64,000 nt of DNA, taken from contig NZ_CANTJS010000007.1 of NCBI RefSeq assembly GCF_947654275.1, positions 1-64,000 of the forward strand. The letters run 5' to 3'. Below are positions 6,597-51,150 of this stretch, piece after piece (position 1 is the stretch's first letter; every line of letters begins with the position of its first letter). The position numbers and the translations under genes are program-made. This DNA comes from an uncultured Oscillibacter sp. Its GTDB lineage: Bacteria > Bacillota > Clostridia > Oscillospirales > Oscillospiraceae. The notes under the pieces are model-generated. The model worked only from the letters and a program-made list of their open reading frames with translations. It was not told the DNA's origin and ran no database searches.

Positions 6597-7376
6597 TCAG
6601 TCAAGGAATGCCGCTCGCAAGGTCTCTGCCACGGTCCGGCAGCGGTTCGGGATTTTCTCCCGGAGCTCCGGAGCGGCGGTCTCCATGATATAGGGCCGGC
6701 CCACCCGCTCCAGCATGGGCAGGTCGTTGTAGTTGTCCCCGAAGGCCATGACCTCCTCCAGGCCGATGCCCAGGGCGGCGCAGAGCCGGGTCAGCCCTGT
6801 GCCCTTGTCCGCCAGGGTGAAGTCCACCCAGGCCTCTCCGGCAATGGCGGCCCGAAAGACGCCGCCCCAGCGGGGGGACAGGGCCTGCCAGGTCTCCTCC
6901 AGACAGCCGGGGCACCAGGCGGAGACCTTGACGATGTCCTCAGGGACCTGGTCCGGCGAGGCCAGGGTCACGGTGCGGTTGCCCACAAAATCCCGGACCA
7001 GCTCCAGCATGCCCGGCCTCTTGGGGAAGATGTAGCTGGTGTTCTCCCCGGAGACCAGCACCTCCGCCTCTGGCAGGGCGGCGATGTCCCGGCACAGGGC
7101 TTCCGCCCGGGGGCGGTCCATGACGGTCTTGGCCAGAACGGGGCCGGGGCTGCCGGGGCCGAAGACCACCGCCCCGTTTTCACAGAGAAAGGGGAGCCGG
7201 TCCGCCGCCGGGGCGAAGAGCCGCCGGAGGCTGCTGTACTGCCGCCCGCTGGCGGGGCAGAAGAGAATGCCCCGCTCCGCCAGACGGCGGATTTCCTGAA
7301 AAATTTCCTCCGGGATTTCCGTGGCTCCGTTTTGAAGCAGGGTCCCGTCAATGTCGCTGGCAATCAGGCGGATCAT
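6597..7376 (-). CDS. Cof-type HAD-IIB phosphatase
   Basis: A 259-residue cytoplasmic haloacid-dehalogenase-superfamily hydrolase. Motif I is ASDIDGTLL near the N terminus, the cap region opens with FLCENGAVV, and the metal site is AFGDNYNDLPML. These place it with the Cof/YbiV sugar-phosphate phosphatases; the substrate cannot be read from sequence. It follows the response regulator by 28 bp with an AAAGGAGGACG site, so it is probably the last gene of the sensor operon. Phosphorylated substrates would fit the neighbouring transporter. Confidence 0.85.
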   Translation of the reverse strand: MIRLIASDIDGTLLQNGATEIPEEIFQEIRRLAERGILFCPASGRQYSSLRRLFAPAADRLPFLCENGAVVFGPGSPGPVLAKTVMDRPRAEALCRDIAALPEAEVLVSGENTSYIFPKRPGMLELVRDFVGNRTVTLASPDQVPEDIVKVSAWCPGCLEETWQALSPRWGGVFRAAIAGEAWVDFTLADKGTGLTRLCAALGIGLEEVMAFGDNYNDLPMLERVGRPYIMETAAPELREKIPNRCRTVAETLRAAFLD

Positions 7377-7404
7377 GCCGCGTCCTCCTTTTCCTCCGCC
7401 GGCG

Positions 7405-8145
7405 CTACCGGCAGGTATCCTGATATTCCGAGGGGCTCATGCCCGTCACCTTCTTGAAGGTGGCGGAGAAATGGGTGATGTCCCGGTAGCCCACCTGCTC
7501 CGCCACCTCGTAGACCTTCACCCGGCAGTCCCGCAGCAGCTCCATGGCCTTCTGAATGCGGTAGCGGGTCAGGTAGTTCAGCAGGGTGTAGTCCGTTTCC
7601 TTCTTGAAGGTGTGGCTCAGGTGCCCCTCGCTGAGGCCCAGGTTCTGGGCAATGGCGCTGATGGTGATGCCGGGGTCGCTGTAGTGGACGCCGATGTAGT
7701 CCATGGCCTCCAGGACGTATTTGCTCTTGTCCCCCTTTTTCAGCCCCGGCAGGGGAAGGGGGCCGCCGCCCCGCTCCGTCCGCCGCCGCAGGGCCGTCAC
7801 CGCCTGCTCCAGGTCGCCGTCGTGGAAGGGCTTGAGAAGAAAGTCCACCGCCCCCAGCCGCAGGGCGCTCCGGGCGTAGGTGAAGCTGTCATAGGCGGTG
7901 AGGATGATGACATAGACCTGGTTCCCCCTCTCCCGGAGGCGGCGGACCATCTCCAGACCGTCCATCTGGGGCATTTTCAAATCCGTGATAATCAGGGAGG
8001 GATTCAGCCGCTCCACGGCCTCCAGGCCCTCCAGCCCGTTGGAGGCCTCTCCCACGACGACGCAGTCCAGCGCCGCCCAGTCCACCGCCAGGACGATGCC
8101 CCTGCGGATCATCTCCTCGTCCTCCACTACCAGCACTTTCAGCAT
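7405..8145 (-). CDS. Response regulator, receiver plus AraC-type DNA-binding domain (YesN-like)
   Basis: A 246-residue transcription regulator. The receiver has the acidic pocket VVEDEE, the phospho-acceptor Asp in IITDLKMPQMDG (about residue 55) and the lysine in FLLKPFHDGD. The C terminus has two helix-turn-helix units ending GYRDITHFSATFKKVTGMSPSEY, typical of AraC. I chose the start at 8145 (GGAGGAGGAACAAGCATG), which overlaps the kinase gene by 7 bp; the longer ORF is an upstream extension. Its likely target is the divergent ABC importer operon or its own operon. Confidence 0.93.
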   Translation of the reverse strand: MLKVLVVEDEEMIRRGIVLAVDWAALDCVVVGEASNGLEGLEAVERLNPSLIITDLKMPQMDGLEMVRRLRERGNQVYVIILTAYDSFTYARSALRLGAVDFLLKPFHDGDLEQAVTALRRRTERGGGPLPLPGLKKGDKSKYVLEAMDYIGVHYSDPGITISAIAQNLGLSEGHLSHTFKKETDYTLLNYLTRYRIQKAMELLRDCRVKVYEVAEQVGYRDITHFSATFKKVTGMSPSEYQDTCR

Positions 8146-20163: not shown

Positions 20164-20187
20164 AGAGTCTGTTTTAAAACAGACTCT
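20164..20187. repeat. Perfect palindrome resembling joined MITE ends
   Basis: AGAGTCTGTTTTAAAACAGACTCT is a 24-bp perfect palindrome. Each half resembles the terminal inverted repeat GAGCCTGTTTAAAATCC of the MITE-like element at 30946 and 47164. It looks like two ends joined with no interior. It sits between the T-box terminator and the DUF2500-like gene. Confidence 0.5.
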
Positions 20188-30898: not shown

Positions 30899-30945
30899 GC
30901 GGTCGGAGGCTCCCGCCGCGGGCGGTTTGCCGGCGGAGGGCCTGA

Positions 30946-31106
30946 GAGCCTGATTAAAATCCGTCGAAACGCCGTCACAGGGCATCTTTTTCCGCCGATG
31001 CTGCGTTGGTTTGACTTGAAATCCGCCAGGATTCCTGCGTCAAACCGCCTTGCCCGGCAAAAAAATCTGCCCCAATCCGGCACTCCGCCGGATTTTAAAC
31101 AGGCTC
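30946..31106. repeat. MITE-like element, copy 1 (161 bp)
   Basis: Terminal inverted repeats GAGCCTGATTAAAATCC and GGATTTTAAACAGGCTC bound a 161-bp non-coding core. The core includes GGTTTGACTTGAAAT and GATTCCTGCGTCAAACC, which form an inner dyad. The flanks carry TGA on both sides, consistent with a 3-bp target duplication. It is an inverted relative of the copy at 47164-47379. Its right end is 24 bp before the response-regulator start, so it may influence that gene. Confidence 0.85.
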
Positions 31107-31129
31107 TGAGAGGTGCGAAGAGGTGCGAT

Positions 31130-34561: not shown

Positions 34562-34792
34562 AGACAATTAAGAATTTCTGTGAATTAGGAATGAGGAATG
34601 AGGAGTTAGGAATTTTTCCCGGCTTCGTTACAATTCCTAATTCCTAACTCCTAATTCCTAATTAAAAGAAAGAGTGATTCCAATTAGAAATGAGGAATGA
34701 GGAATTTGAGGTTCCTGATTCAATTCCTAATTCCTAACTCCTAATTCCTAATTTCTAACTCCTAATTCCTGATTTAAACGGAGGTTTATGCT
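34562..34792. repeat. AT-rich GGAAT/ATTCC hairpin array between leuC and leuD
   Basis: Two consecutive hairpins are built from AATTAGGAATGAGGAATGAGGA on the left arm and AATTCCTAATTCCTAACTCC on the right. They fill the space from just after the leuC stop to just before the leuD RBS. The base composition differs sharply from the genes. The same family occurs at 43614, 50435 and 51060. It is non-coding. Confidence 0.85.
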
Positions 34793-36814: not shown

Positions 36815-36945
36815 AAGACGCCGCCGGGCTTTACGCCTGCCCCCGCAGGAACGCCTGTAGGGGCGGGCCTCTGCGCCCGCCCGTTCTCCCAATGATGCTG
36901 GGCCTCCGGCAGACGGGCCGGGACAGGCCCCTACATAAAATCTTC
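36815..36945. repeat. GC-rich mosaic repeat module
   Basis: Contains GCCTGTAGGGGCGGGCCTCTGCGCCCGCCCGTTCTCCCAATG and GACGGGCCGGGACAGGCCCCTACATAAAATC, both closely matched at 39770-39897. Inner dyads (GGGGCGGGC...GCCCGCCC) suggest structured RNA or a repetitive extragenic element. It is non-coding. Confidence 0.7.
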
Positions 36946-39769: not shown

Positions 39770-39905
39770 GCGGGCTTTACACCTGACCCCCGCAATGATG
39801 CCTGTAGGGGCGGGCCTCTGTGCCCGCCCGTTCTCCCAATGGTTCCGGATTCCCGGCAGAGGGACCGGGACAGGCCCCTGCAAAATAAAATCTGCCAATA
39901 AGAAC
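39770..39905. repeat. GC-rich mosaic repeat module
   Basis: Near-identical to 36815-36945 over GGCGGGCTTTAC...TGCCTGTAGGGGCGGGCCTCTGTGCCCGCCCGTTCTCCCAATG. The right end, GGCCCCTGCAAAATAAAATCTGCC, matches the inverted form of 46998-47030. It is non-coding. Confidence 0.7.
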
Positions 39906-43614: not shown

Positions 43615-43715
43615 ATTAGGAATTAGGAATGAGGAATTAGGAATGGCTTCTTAATTAGGAATGATTCCGTTCTTTCGGCAATTCCTAACTCCTAACTCCT
43701 AATTCCTAATTTCCG
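43614..43715. repeat. GGAAT/ATTCC hairpin array between alr and the DMT transporter
   Basis: AATTAGGAATTAGGAATGAGGAATTAGGAATGG forms one arm and ATTCCTAACTCCTAACTCCTAATTCCTAATT the other. It begins at the alr stop and ends before the next RBS, as at 34562. Confidence 0.85.
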
Positions 43716-46658: not shown

Positions 46659-47160
46659 GGACAGGCGCCCCCGGGTCCCCCCTCAGGTCCGCCGGGGAGG
46701 AAGCGCCCGGCTGAAGGAGCTTTTTGCAGGCCCCGCCTTCCGGTGAAATGGGGAAAGGACGCTTCCGGAGGAAGCGCCCTATTCGGAGATTTTTTGGATA
46801 CTTTTCGGAGACTTTTCGAAAATTTTTCGGAGGCTTTTCGGGGGCTTTATGCAGGGGCCTGCCCCGTCCTCCGAAGGCATGGAGAGCCCGGAGGAACGGG
46901 AGGGGGCCGACCCCGGCAGAGGCGTGTAGGGGCCGCCGCCCTCGGCGGCCCGCTGGCAGCAATGATGAAGGCTGCTGTAAAATGCGCTGGGGGAGCGTCC
47001 GATTGGCAGATTTTATTTTGCAGGGGCCGGCCCGATGTTGTGAGGCCCTTATACCGGCGGCCCCTGCATCATGGTCCTGCTGTAAAATGCGCAGATGGAC
47101 ACGCCCCGTTGGGCGGCGGCGATTGACTGGAAAACGGGAGTATGTTATGATCGTCCACAA
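46659..47160. repeat. Repeat-filled spacer before radC
   Basis: No gene. A run of CGGAGANTTTTTNGGA-type units lies near 46790-46850. Mosaic modules follow: GGCGGCCCGCTGGCAGCAATGATGAAGG (46942), GCTGTAAAATGCGC (46974 and 47083), and GAGCGTCCGATTGGCAGATTTTATTTTGCAGGGGCC (46998). All recur in other spacers. Confidence 0.7.
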
Positions 47161-47163
47161 TAA

Positions 47164-47379
47164 GAGCCTGTTTAAAATCCGGCGGAGTGCCGGATTGGGG
47201 CAGATTTTTTACCCAATGGGCATGTGATATCCGTAAGGCGGCAGAGCCGCCAACGGCTATCCAATTGTCGGGCAAGGCGGTTTGACGCAGGAATCCTGGC
47301 GAATTTCAAGTCAAACCAACGCAGCACCGGCGGAAAAAGATGCCCTGAGACGGCGTTTCGATGGATTTTAATCAGGCTC
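47164..47379. repeat. MITE-like element, copy 2 (216 bp), with nested insert
   Basis: Inverted relative of 30946-31106. The ends are GAGCCTGTTTAAAATCC and GGATTTTAATCAGGCTC, flanked by TAA on both sides (47161-47163 and 47380-47382), a 3-bp target duplication. An extra segment of about 55 bp (about 47211-47267, core GGCGGCAGAGCCGCC) interrupts it and resembles the element at 129-215. Its right end is about 30 bp before the radC start. Confidence 0.85.
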
Positions 47380-47408
47380 TAAGACGCGGCGGTGAAAGGA
47401 GCGAAGGC

Positions 47409-48077
47409 ATGAACATCCACAAGGGACACAGGCAGCATATGCGTGACCGCTTCATACAGGGCGGCCTGGAGGGCTTTGCCGACCACGAGGCCCTGGAGCT
47501 GCTTCTGTATTACGCCATCCCTCAGAAGGACACGAATCCCCTGGCCCATGCCCTGATGGAGCGCTATGGGAGCCTGTCCGCCGTGCTGTCCGCACCCATT
47601 GAGGATTTGGTAAAAATGGAGGGCGTCGGAGAGCGGACCGCCGTTCTGCTGCACCTGGTGCCCCGGATAGAGCAGAAGGCCCATCTGTCGGAGCTGGAAC
47701 AGGTGCTGGACAGCACCGGGCGCATCGGCGCGTATCTTCTGGAGCGCTTTTCCCTGGAGCGGGACGAGGTGGTCTATCAGCTCTGCCTGGACCAGAAGGG
47801 CCGTCTGCTGGCCTGCAAGTGCCTGGGGGAGGGCGGAACCGCCTCCGTGGACCTGGATGTCCGCAGGCTGGTGGAAAACGCCCTGCTGTCCACCGCCAGC
47901 GGGGTGGTCCTGGCTCACAACCACCCCAGCGGCGTGGCCCTGCCCTCTCCCGAGGATTACGCGGCCACCGACCGGGCCCGGGCGGCCCTGAAAACCGTGG
48001 GGGTGGAGCTGCTGGACCACATCATTATAGCGGACCGGGATTTTGTATCCCTGGCGGATTCCGGCTGTCTCCGTTAG
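47409..48077 (+). CDS. radC: DNA repair protein RadC family (JAMM domain)
   Basis: A 222-residue protein. The N-terminal helix-hairpin-helix part begins MNIHKGHRQHMRDRF and includes KMEGVGERTAVLL. The C-terminal JAMM metal site is AHNHPSGVALPSPEDYAATDR. Its role in repair is unproven despite the name. The ATG at 47409 follows AAAGGAGCG; the ORF-track start lies inside the MITE. The stop codon abuts a half-site of the MITE terminal repeat. Confidence 0.93.
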   Translation: MNIHKGHRQHMRDRFIQGGLEGFADHEALELLLYYAIPQKDTNPLAHALMERYGSLSAVLSAPIEDLVKMEGVGERTAVLLHLVPRIEQKAHLSELEQVLDSTGRIGAYLLERFSLERDEVVYQLCLDQKGRLLACKCLGEGGTASVDLDVRRLVENALLSTASGVVLAHNHPSGVALPSPEDYAATDRARAALKTVGVELLDHIIIADRDFVSLADSGCLR

Positions 48078-48092
48078 TTTTAAAACAGACTC
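48077..48092. repeat. MITE terminal-repeat half-site at the end of radC
   Basis: GTTTTAAAACAGACTC, identical to 16 bp of the palindrome at 20165-20186, starts at the last base of the radC stop codon. With copy 2 upstream, it brackets radC. Confidence 0.45.
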
Positions 48093-48300
48093 CAGTACCC
48101 GCATTCAGGCCGCCCTGCGGATGCCGTCCGGCCTGCAGGGATACGGCAATCTGCCGGTTCTATAGCAAGCGTCAAAATTCCCGACAAACGGGCCGGCCAG
48201 GGGGCCGGTCCCTACAGAGGCGTGTAGGGGCAGCCGCCCCCGGCGGCCCGCTGGCAGCAATGATGAGGGTTGCTATAAGCCTCCAGCGGGGCTGAACCCG
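48093..48300. repeat. Mosaic repeat module after radC
   Basis: Holds GGCGTGTAGGGGCAGCCGCCCCCGGCGGCCCGCTGGCAGCAATGATGAGGGTTGCT, matching 46918-46977. It also has CAAAATTCCCGACAAACGGGCCGGCCAGGGGG, whose reverse complement matches 40646-40677. No gene. Confidence 0.65.
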
Positions 48301-48463: not shown

Positions 48464-50434
48464 ATGCCGAAATTTCAGGTTGTATCCGATTATCAGCCCT
48501 CCGGCGACCAGCCGGAGGCCATTGCCGCTTTGGCGGGGGGCATTGAAAACGGACTGAAGGAGCAGGTTTTGCTGGGCGTCACCGGCTCCGGCAAGACCTT
48601 TACCATGGCAAAGGTCATCGAGGCCGTCCAGCGGCCCACTCTGGTGCTGGCTCACAACAAAACCCTGGCGGCCCAGCTCTGCGCGGAGTTCAAGGAGTTC
48701 TTCCCCAACAACGCCGTGGAGTATTTCGTGTCCTACTATGACTACTACCAGCCCGAGGCCTATATCCCCCACACGGACACCTATATTGCAAAAGACGCCT
48801 CCACCAACGACGAAATCGACCGACTCCGCCTCTCCGCCACCTTCGCCCTGCTGGAACGGCGGGACGTGATTGTGGTGGCCTCTGTCTCCTGTATTTACGG
48901 ACTGGGAGAGCCGGAGGATTTCGCGAAGCTGTCCGTCTCTCTCCGGGTGGGGGCGGAGTGGGAGCGGGACGAGATGCTGCGCCGCCTGGTGGAAATCCGC
49001 TATGAGCGGAACGACGTCGCCTTTGAGCGCAACATGTTCCGGGTCCGGGGGGACACGGTGGAGATATACCCGGCCTATTACAAGGACAGGGCCATCCGGG
49101 TGGAGTTCTTCGGGGACGAGATTGAGCGCATCAGCGAATTCAACCCCCTCACCGGAACCGCCTCGCTGAAGCTGAACCACGCCGTGATCTACCCCGCCAG
49201 CCACTACGTTACCACCAAGGACAAAATGGACAGGGCCATCGGGGAAATCCGGAAGGAGCTGGAGATACAGGTGGAGGGCTTCAACGCCAATAACCAGCTG
49301 GTGGAGGCCCAGCGCATCCGCCAGCGGACGGAGTACGACATGGAGATGATGCAGGAACTGGGCTACTGCTCCGGCATCGAGAACTATTCCCGCATCATCT
49401 CCGACCGGCCCGCCGGGTCCGCGCCCATGACGCTGCTGGACTTCTTCCCTGAGGATTTCGTGCTCTTCGTGGACGAGAGCCACGTCACACTGCCCCAGGT
49501 CCGGGCGATGTACAACGGCGACCACGCCCGGAAGGACGCCCTGGTGAAATACGGCTTCCGCCTCCCCTGCGCCTATGACAACCGCCCCCTGAAATTCGAG
49601 GAGTTCGAGGGCCGCATCGGTCAGGCGGTTTTCGTCTCGGCCACGCCGGGCCCCTATGAGCGGGAGCGGGCGGACCAGGTGGTGGAGCAGGTCATCCGGC
49701 CCACGGGACTGCTGGACCCCAGAGTGGAGGTCCGGCCCGTCACCGGGCAGATTGACGACCTGATAGAGGAGATCAACGCCCGGGCCGCCAGGGACGAACG
49801 GGTGCTGGTGACCACCCTCACCAAGAAAATGGCGGAGGACCTGACGGAGTACTTCAAGAACGCCGGAATCAGGGTCCGGTATATGCACGCGGACGTGGAG
49901 ACCATCCAGCGGATGGAGATTATCCGGGACCTGCGGCTGGGGAAATTTGACGTGCTCATCGGCATCAACCTCCTCCGGGAGGGCCTGGACCTGCCGGAGG
50001 TCAGTCTGGTGGCCGTGCTGGACGCGGACAAGGAGGGCTTCCTCCGGTCCGAGACCTCTCTGATTCAGACCATAGGCCGGGCGGCCCGGAACGCGGAGGG
50101 TCTGGTGGTTCTCTACGCCGATACCATCACCCCCTCCATGCGGGCGGCTATGGACGAGACGGAGCGCCGCCGGGGGATTCAGGACCGCTTTAACCAGGAG
50201 CACGGCATCGTCCCCAAGACCATCATCAAGGGGGTCCGGGAGGTGCTGGAGATTTCCGCCGCCGCCGAGGAGGACACCACCCAGGCCCGTCGGCACAAAA
50301 AGCTGAGCCAGGCGGAGCGGGACGCGGAAATCCGGCGTCTGGAGAAGGAGATGAAGGAGGCCAGCAAGATGCTGGAATTCGAGTACGCGGCGGTGCTGAG
50401 AGACCGGATTATCGAGCTGAGGGGAGAGAAATAG
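48464..50434 (+). CDS. uvrB: Excinuclease ABC subunit B
   Basis: A 656-residue nucleotide-excision-repair helicase-like ATPase. Walker A is [16 protein letters not shown] (about 37-52), the damage-sensing beta-hairpin [21 protein letters not shown], motif [10 protein letters not shown] and the C-terminal UVR motif [21 protein letters not shown]. Length is normal. The promoter carries an SOS box, so damage induction is expected. uvrA lies 5.9 kb downstream in a separate unit. Confidence 0.97.
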
Positions 50435-50690
50435 TTAGGAATGAGGAATTAGGAATGAGGAATTTTCCGAAATTCCCCCAATTCTAACTCCTGATGAGAA
50501 ATGGTCAGGAATGAGAAATTAGGAATGAGGAATTTTCCGAAATTCCCCCAATTCTAACTCCTGATGAGAAATGGTCAGGAATGAGAAATTAGGAATGAGG
50601 AATTAAAAATGAGAAATTTTCCGAAATTCCACCCAATTCCTAATTCCTAACTCCTAACTCCTAATTCCTAATTCCTAATTGAATGAGGTG
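50435..50690. repeat. GGAAT/ATTCC hairpin array with tandem 73-bp-scale units
   Basis: The same family as at 34562. The block GAATTAGGAATGAGGAATTTTCCGAAATTCCCCCAATTCTAACTCCTGATGAGAAATGGTCAGGAATGAGAAATTAGG is repeated almost exactly in tandem, then closes with ATTCCTAACTCCTAACTCC. It runs from the uvrB stop to the next RBS. Confidence 0.88.
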
Positions 50691-50694
50691 TTTT

Positions 50695-51069
50695 ATGAAA
50701 TACGAATGGCTGGACGAATACCTCCTGGCCCTGCCGGGGGCGGAAAAGGACTACAAGCCCGAATGGGGCTGGTTCCGGTACATGCTCCGGGGCAAGCTCT
50801 TTGCCGCGGTCTGCACGCCGGACGAAAAGCACGGCACCTACGGCGGCCACGACCTGGTGAATCTGAAATGCGACCCCGCCCGGGGCGAAATCCTCCGGGC
50901 GGCCCACCCCGAAATTCTGCCGGGGTTCTACTGCGACAAACGGCACTGGATTGCCTGCCTCCTGGACGGGGACCTGCCGGAGGATATCCTCCGGGAGCTC
51001 TGCCGGGAGTCCCACCAGCTGATTTTGAAAAAGCTGCCCAAATACGTACAGAAGGAAATTAGTAATTAG
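50695..51069 (+). CDS. MmcQ/YjbR-family protein
   Basis: A 124-residue cytoplasmic protein. EWGWFRYMLRGKLFAAV, LVNLKCDPARGEILRAAHPEILPGFYCDKRHWIACLLDGDLPEDILRELCRESHQLI is the typical YjbR core, a double-wing DNA-binding-like fold of unclear role. The ATG at 50695 follows GAGGTGTTTT; the ATG at 50683 lies before the RBS. It is flanked on both sides by AT-rich repeat arrays. Confidence 0.87.
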   Translation: MKYEWLDEYLLALPGAEKDYKPEWGWFRYMLRGKLFAAVCTPDEKHGTYGGHDLVNLKCDPARGEILRAAHPEILPGFYCDKRHWIACLLDGDLPEDILRELCRESHQLILKKLPKYVQKEISN

Positions 51070-51150
51070 AAATTAGGAATGAGGAATTGCGGCTCGTTTG
51101 GATAAATTCCTGATTCCTAACGCCTCATTCCTAATTGAGGGAAGTGTTTA
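51057..51150. repeat. GGAAT/ATTCC hairpin array
   Basis: AATTAGAAATTAGGAATGAGGAATTG and AATTCCTGATTCCTAACGCCTCATTCCTAATT form the arms; they overlap the last codons of the YjbR-like gene, so its C terminus (KEISN) is supplied by the repeat. Confidence 0.8.

Follow-up and report, generated by a model that had tools for sequence, protein, structure and literature searches.

Two related inverted-repeat elements in the window

We analyzed a stretch of 64,000 nucleotides from an uncultured Oscillibacter sp., which we call the window. It contains two related repeats. Copy 1 is located between a prfC-like release-factor gene, whose end faces it, and a gene for a response regulator, and copy 2 lies in the opposite orientation upstream of radC; the names of the genes beside both copies were read from their translations. 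The features are as follows.

30943..30945, + strand: left target duplication of copy 1, TGA
30946..31106, + strand: copy 1, a MITE of class A, 161 bp, without an ORF of its own
30946..30962, + strand: left terminal inverted repeat of copy 1, GAGCCTGATTAAAATCC
30979..31074, + strand: conserved folded core of copy 1 (covariance model R1, 99 bits, E 8e-24)
31090..31106, - strand: right terminal inverted repeat of copy 1, GAGCCTGTTTAAAATCC
31107..31109, + strand: right target duplication of copy 1, TGA
47161..47163, + strand: target duplication of copy 2, left on the + strand, TAA
47164..47379, - strand: copy 2, a MITE of class A', 216 bp (class A with a 55-bp insert), upstream of radC
47210..47264, - strand: extra hairpin insert of copy 2, 55 bp
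47251..47346, - strand: conserved folded core of copy 2 (model R1, 76 bits; the lower end enters the insert)
47380..47382, + strand: target duplication of copy 2, right on the + strand, TAA

Both copies have the positions and flanks that a sequence-only reading of this DNA had assigned to them, with TGA on each side of copy 1 and TAA on each side of copy 2. That reading had also described shared termini. These are real, and consist of the 17-nt end GAGCCTGWTTAAAATCC; the consensus that had been written for them contains one surplus base, and therefore matches only when 3 mismatches are permitted (4 matches, versus 0.05 expected from shuffles). It was correct, too, that no transposase is encoded: the 161-bp and 216-bp elements have 17-bp ends and no transposase ORF. 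Copy 2 is the copy 1 element plus a 55-bp hairpin insert, rather than a plain diverged copy. When folded, the whole 161-mer forms a single long hairpin from end to end (-69.7 kcal/mol, z = -7.7).

Copy 1 is also found at the orthologous place in a congener, G034 (G034:C4:8738-8897), so its insertion is older. It is absent from the other congeners inspected; in one of these, G002, the orthologous site lacks the element and the spacer is too diverged to give a clean empty site.

A dispersed family with several classes of ends

It had been suggested that a genome search with the 161-bp sequence and its ends could reveal further copies, and many more were indeed found. A sequence search with the 161-mer yielded 49 matching stretches in the window's own genome, a draft of 111 contigs, and inverted pairs of ends occur there at spacings of 161, 216, 160 and 45 bp. 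No copies of the 161-mer were found in phage and plasmid collections. We named sets of elements by their ends, giving A, A', B and C in the own genome and the further classes D, E, F and G. Class A has GAGCCTGWTTAAAATCC ends and a length of 161 bp, and A' is the same element with an insert (216 bp). Class B has GAGCCTGTTTAAAATCT ends, a length of 160 bp and 67-68% identity to A. Class C has GAGTCTGTTTTAAAACC ends and is 161 bp long, or longer when an insert is present; its identity to A is ~80-85%, and reaches 87% in a copy with intermediate ends. The 45-bp element (C40:10423-10467, flanked by TCA/TCA) is barely more than two ends.

Copy numbers in two further genomes are 8-9 copies of class A in G034 and ~146 matches to class-B ends in G077. 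Many of the latter lie ~77-96 bp from contig ends, and the G077 assembly has apparently been broken in mid-element by class B.

The earlier proposal of a MITE-like family is borne out, in that the elements are short, carry 17-bp inverted ends and no transposase, and are dispersed, the draft genome having more than 30 of them. We regard it as confirmed that both repeats are genuine small mobile elements belonging to a MITE family. Taken alone, each such family is nothing out of the ordinary. Among the open-access papers searched, we found no literature on MITEs or palindromic repeats in these taxa.

Target duplications and empty sites

We tallied target duplications over all copies gathered, in related genomes, after removing duplicate flanks. 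In classes A and B, an exact TNA duplication is present in 53 of 60 copies and a TA duplication in none of the 60. Class C has a TA duplication in 18 of 20 copies and a TNA duplication in 0 of 20. Duplications of TNA were also observed for classes D (18/24) and E (7/9), and of TA for classes F (3/4) and G (8/9). When left and right flanks were taken from different A/B copies, only 30% of these mismatched pairs were identical, and therefore the variable base of TNA is truly duplicated. The target consensus is YTNAR-like for A/B and YTAR for C. An exact TNA match is missing from the other 7 of the 60 A/B copies; in 5 of these 7 (e.g., L007), one flank is TAA and the opposite one TTA, which looks like replacement of the variable base by its complement.

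Joined flanks were then used as queries over 86 genomes of the genus. A third copy of class A occupies the site ACAGATG-TAA-[161 bp]-TAA-GACGCC (G000:C54:14079-14239), and its empty counterpart in G034:C7 reads ACAGCTG-TAA-GACGCC, with a single triplet. Similarly, the site of copy 2 reads CACAA-TAA-[element]-TAA-GACGCGG when occupied, and CTGCAA-TGA-GACGCGG, with a single TNA-type triplet, in G034:C32. The sequence-only reading had postulated 3-bp TNA duplications, and had stated that empty sites lacking a duplication, or many copies with non-matching flanks, would speak against them. The opposite was seen in both respects: each of the two empty sites has one TNA triplet, and the exact matches in 53 of 60 A/B copies compare with 30% in mismatched pairs.

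Source of the transposase

The same reading had placed an IS5-group parent elsewhere, and had suggested searching for a transposase gene with matching termini. The search succeeded on a public viral contig (IMG/VR) and failed within the own genome. Contig 3300006141_000097 (L190) contains, at positions 6965-7832, an 868-bp IS with perfect GAGCCTGTTTAAAATCT ends flanked by TTA/TTA, i.e., a parent with identical TNA-type ends outside the draft genome. It carries an orfA/orfB transposase, both halves of which match NF033580 (IS5 family), each below the whole-protein cut-off because a frameshift splits the gene. In the sample of the order, the closest relatives of this transposase are only ~33% identical. 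With its ends, duplication and transposase, the L190 IS fits the IS1031 subgroup of the IS5 family. A plasmid IS of Lactiplantibacillus (L. plantarum) is 850 bp long, ends in GAACCTGTTTAAAATCT and is flanked by TTA/TTA.

Searches of the own genome and of the 86 genomes of the genus revealed relic ends only and no intact IS with GAGCCTGTTTAAAATCC ends; neither the own draft genome (93% complete) nor the genus sample gave an intact IS of the TNA type. The congeners G031 and G083 have relic ends that are similar to the right end of the L190 IS. These solitary ends were considered as parents and rejected, as a transposase is absent there. In G077, a search with PF01609 gave no match despite the ~146 class-B ends, and the assembly may miss a multi-copy IS.

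The IS5 copies inside the own genome belong to a TA-type sister class. There are three PF13340 matches in this genome, located exactly at ends without a partner at MITE distance. One is an IS of ~843 bp (C11:29741-30583) that has GAGTCTGTTTTAAAACC ends, TA flanks and two ORFs, of 137 and 123 aa; its split transposase matches NF033580, IS5 family. The first 23 nt of this IS are identical to those of class C MITEs, and nothing is shared further in. It is an IS427-like IS5 element and pairs with class C. The other two PF13340 loci are damaged copies. Internally shortened IS copies also exist in this genome, at C75:55-594 (~540 bp) and C30:436-967 (532 bp).

A folded core shared by elements with different ends

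Elements with different ends have in common a central hairpin core of ~50 bp, with the pattern GCGTY-N7-CTTG-NN-ATCCGYCAGGAT-NSCYGCG-N8-CCTTG. At least six end classes with good sampling include elements that carry the core. When named genomes were scanned with a slightly looser pattern, the matches listed included Oscillibacter, Flavonifractor, Lawsonibacter and Faecalibacterium, as well as Anaerotruncus colihominis and other Oscillospiraceae records. In nearly all complete cases, the core is 55-57 nt from the left end and 52-56 from the right, and core-bearing elements are ~157-163 bp long across end classes (typically 159-162 bp, with an offset of 56/54). With a covariance model, cores were detected in 81 of the 295 Oscillospirales genomes searched, spread across the order; the model also found cores with a differing tetraloop stem in palindromic elements with further ends. 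In addition, the elements L253, L257 and L262 combine the core with ends resembling GGAACCACTGAATAAATC; L253 has TTAA on each side, which suggests a transposase group beyond the TNA and TA ones.

The fold of the core is supported by covariation. For 32 diverse sequences, we obtained a covariation score of 0.457, compared with 0.142 +/- 0.014 in shuffles and no more than 0.218 after sliding the partner. The middle helix (helix 2), which comprises the positions left free by the search pattern, has changes on both sides at 7 of 7 pairs, with 88.8% of cells pairing, although related sequences inflate such counts of covariation. The invariance of the loops and tetraloop stem in our first survey is not evidence, because the pattern fixes them. 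Two mirrored internal loops, CTGCG opposite CCTTG and CTTG opposite CYGCG, stay unpaired in the elements that the model recovered across the order.

It is quite conceivable, though we would not bet on it, that covariation in these palindromes results from template switching from arm to arm during replication (gene conversion), rather than from selection on the fold. The mosaic elements described below and the perfect or nearly perfect palindromes of 22 and 45 bp show that arms do recombine. However, such homogenization should erase the two unpaired internal loops, and they persist across the order; pure conversion is disfavored for this reason. We favor selection on the hairpin, at the level of DNA or RNA, over chance as the cause of the retained fold. 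A function for the core can only be inferred. Our tentative idea, which we consider rather unlikely to hold in full, is that the core is a selected hairpin module, acting as single-stranded DNA or RNA, in which the two mirrored internal loops flank the covarying helix. This module would parasitize several transposases of different end specificity via exchanged termini, and it, rather than the IS ends, would be the unit of inheritance.

Probable exchange of ends between elements

An identical 50-nt core is present in L285, which has D ends and TGA/TGA flanks, and in L241 and L267, which have G ends and TA flanks. There are also mosaics with two kinds of ends, namely L248 (D left, B right), L250 and L261. 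Because of these mosaics and the identical cores behind different ends, we infer that ends have been exchanged, a conclusion that we consider supported, and recombination between elements via the shared core would be the simplest account. Between A' and C', identity is 99% in the 55-bp insert, but only 77% and 83% in the arms around it. The insert is in the same place in two element classes (47210-47264 in the window; L011-L014 and L021-L026), and its motif GGCGGCAGAGCCGCC is also found beside a G-like element of G077 (L137).

The elements thus constitute a superfamily in Oscillospirales, with a length of ~160 bp, a shared core and differing ends, each with its own duplication type. For every end class, this type is presumably that of its own IS5 subgroup; a cognate IS has been identified for classes A/B and C only.

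Another explanation would be that the elements arose from one IS5 element by ordinary internal deletion and that the core reflects a meaningless common ancestry. The ends of the MITEs do match IS ends, and internally shortened IS copies, mentioned above, do exist here. However, the MITEs and the ISs share nothing beyond 17-23 nt. In addition, a single core is found with the ends of several IS subgroups whose duplications differ in size, and its helix covaries from class to class, with the loops still unpaired. We therefore regard this explanation as improbable.

Proposed mechanism

We propose that both copies in the window are moved in trans by an IS1031-type transposase of the IS5 family. The enzyme would recognize the 17-bp GAGCCTGWTTAAAATCC ends, a match that we base on sequence identity, and would cut a YTNAR-like target, leading to the 3-bp TNA duplication. 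Transposition itself is deduced, and mobility in trans appears well supported by the sequences. The core lineage would repeatedly have swapped its ends and gained optional hairpin inserts, probably by recombination between nested or neighboring elements via the shared core, such that one folded body became usable by several transposases. We assign a probability of roughly 0.87 to this account as a whole, i.e., to IS1031-type mobilization in trans combined with an end-swapping core superfamily of ~160-bp elements.

The elements are intergenic and close to genes (median distances of 44 and 66 bp), and no bias was found in their orientation relative to neighboring genes (23/20/20/16), so a strand-specific RNA role is not supported. 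The window elements have no match in Rfam at gathering thresholds, and otherwise only chance-level ones. Their strong hairpins and gene-proximal locations might suggest structured repeats that are not mobile, such as terminators, RNA regulators or REP-like sequences, with another mode of spread and with triplets that reflect an insertion preference. This is highly improbable in view of the precise empty sites, the duplication of the N of TNA (53/60 versus 30%) and the absence of an orientation bias or Rfam match.

Remnants and other repeats

Two further features in the window resemble class-C ends.

20165..20186, no strand: 22-bp perfect palindrome GAGTCTGTTTTAAAACAGACTC, two class-C ends tip to tip, flanked by CTA/TTA
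48076..48092, - strand: solitary class-C-like end, a probable relic, just after radC

The palindrome is near a T-box leader and is probably a minimal element or an excision remnant. At G000:C18:11124-11145, two ends overlap in a similar way. The window also contains a group of AATTCCTAATTCCTAACTCC-rich repeats in direct and inverted copies (34610-34774, 43658-43711, 50426-50666 and 51057-51136), and GC-rich intergenic repeats in several copies, which are seemingly a separate repeat family. The latter have the forms AGGGGGCCG...GCAGCAATGATG and CCCCCGCA...CCTGTAGGGGCGGGCC, and are located at 46901-46980 and 48199-48278, and at 36840-36938 and 39787-39885.

Significance and comparison with known systems

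MITEs are usually viewed as worn-down forms of a single parent insertion sequence. Here, one folded body of ~160 bp is found again and again in an order of abundant gut bacteria, behind at least six end classes. Each end class has its own consistent duplication type, so terminus exchange and hairpin selection are directly testable. The elements also explain repeats that break assemblies of these genomes, and provide insertion markers for strain typing.

The closest comparison for the window elements is the IS1031 subgroup, of which ISLrh has 17-bp GAACCTGTCTAGTATCT ends, 3-bp TNA repeats and an orfA/orfB frameshift (PMC12016507). The likeness consists of 17-bp ends of the GA(A/G)CCTGT.TA..ATCT type, 3-bp TNA duplications and a parent of ~850 bp with orfA/orfB; unlike ISLrh, the window elements lack a transposase, and only ~17 nt are in common. 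Members of the IS427 group are ~832-865 bp long, with 2-bp repeats and two ORFs (PMC3281130). The ~843-bp IS in the own genome resembles them in its two overlapping ORFs and TA flanks, and class C MITEs fit the 2-bp duplications, whereas class A in the window duplicates TNA, not TA.

With bacterial MITEs in general (reviewed in PMC10969869), the elements share a short length, an absence of coding sequence, inverted ends, a duplicated target and many copies. They differ in the folded core that is conserved across many end classes, a feature of which the open-access papers searched gave us no description in prokaryotic MITEs; this common core appears to be the undescribed part. Finally, mosaic mini-elements such as Tn3-derived TIMEs (PMC4133298) are similar in their non-autonomous nature and mosaic make-up. 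The mosaics reported here differ in joining the ends of different IS5 subgroups via a hairpin core.
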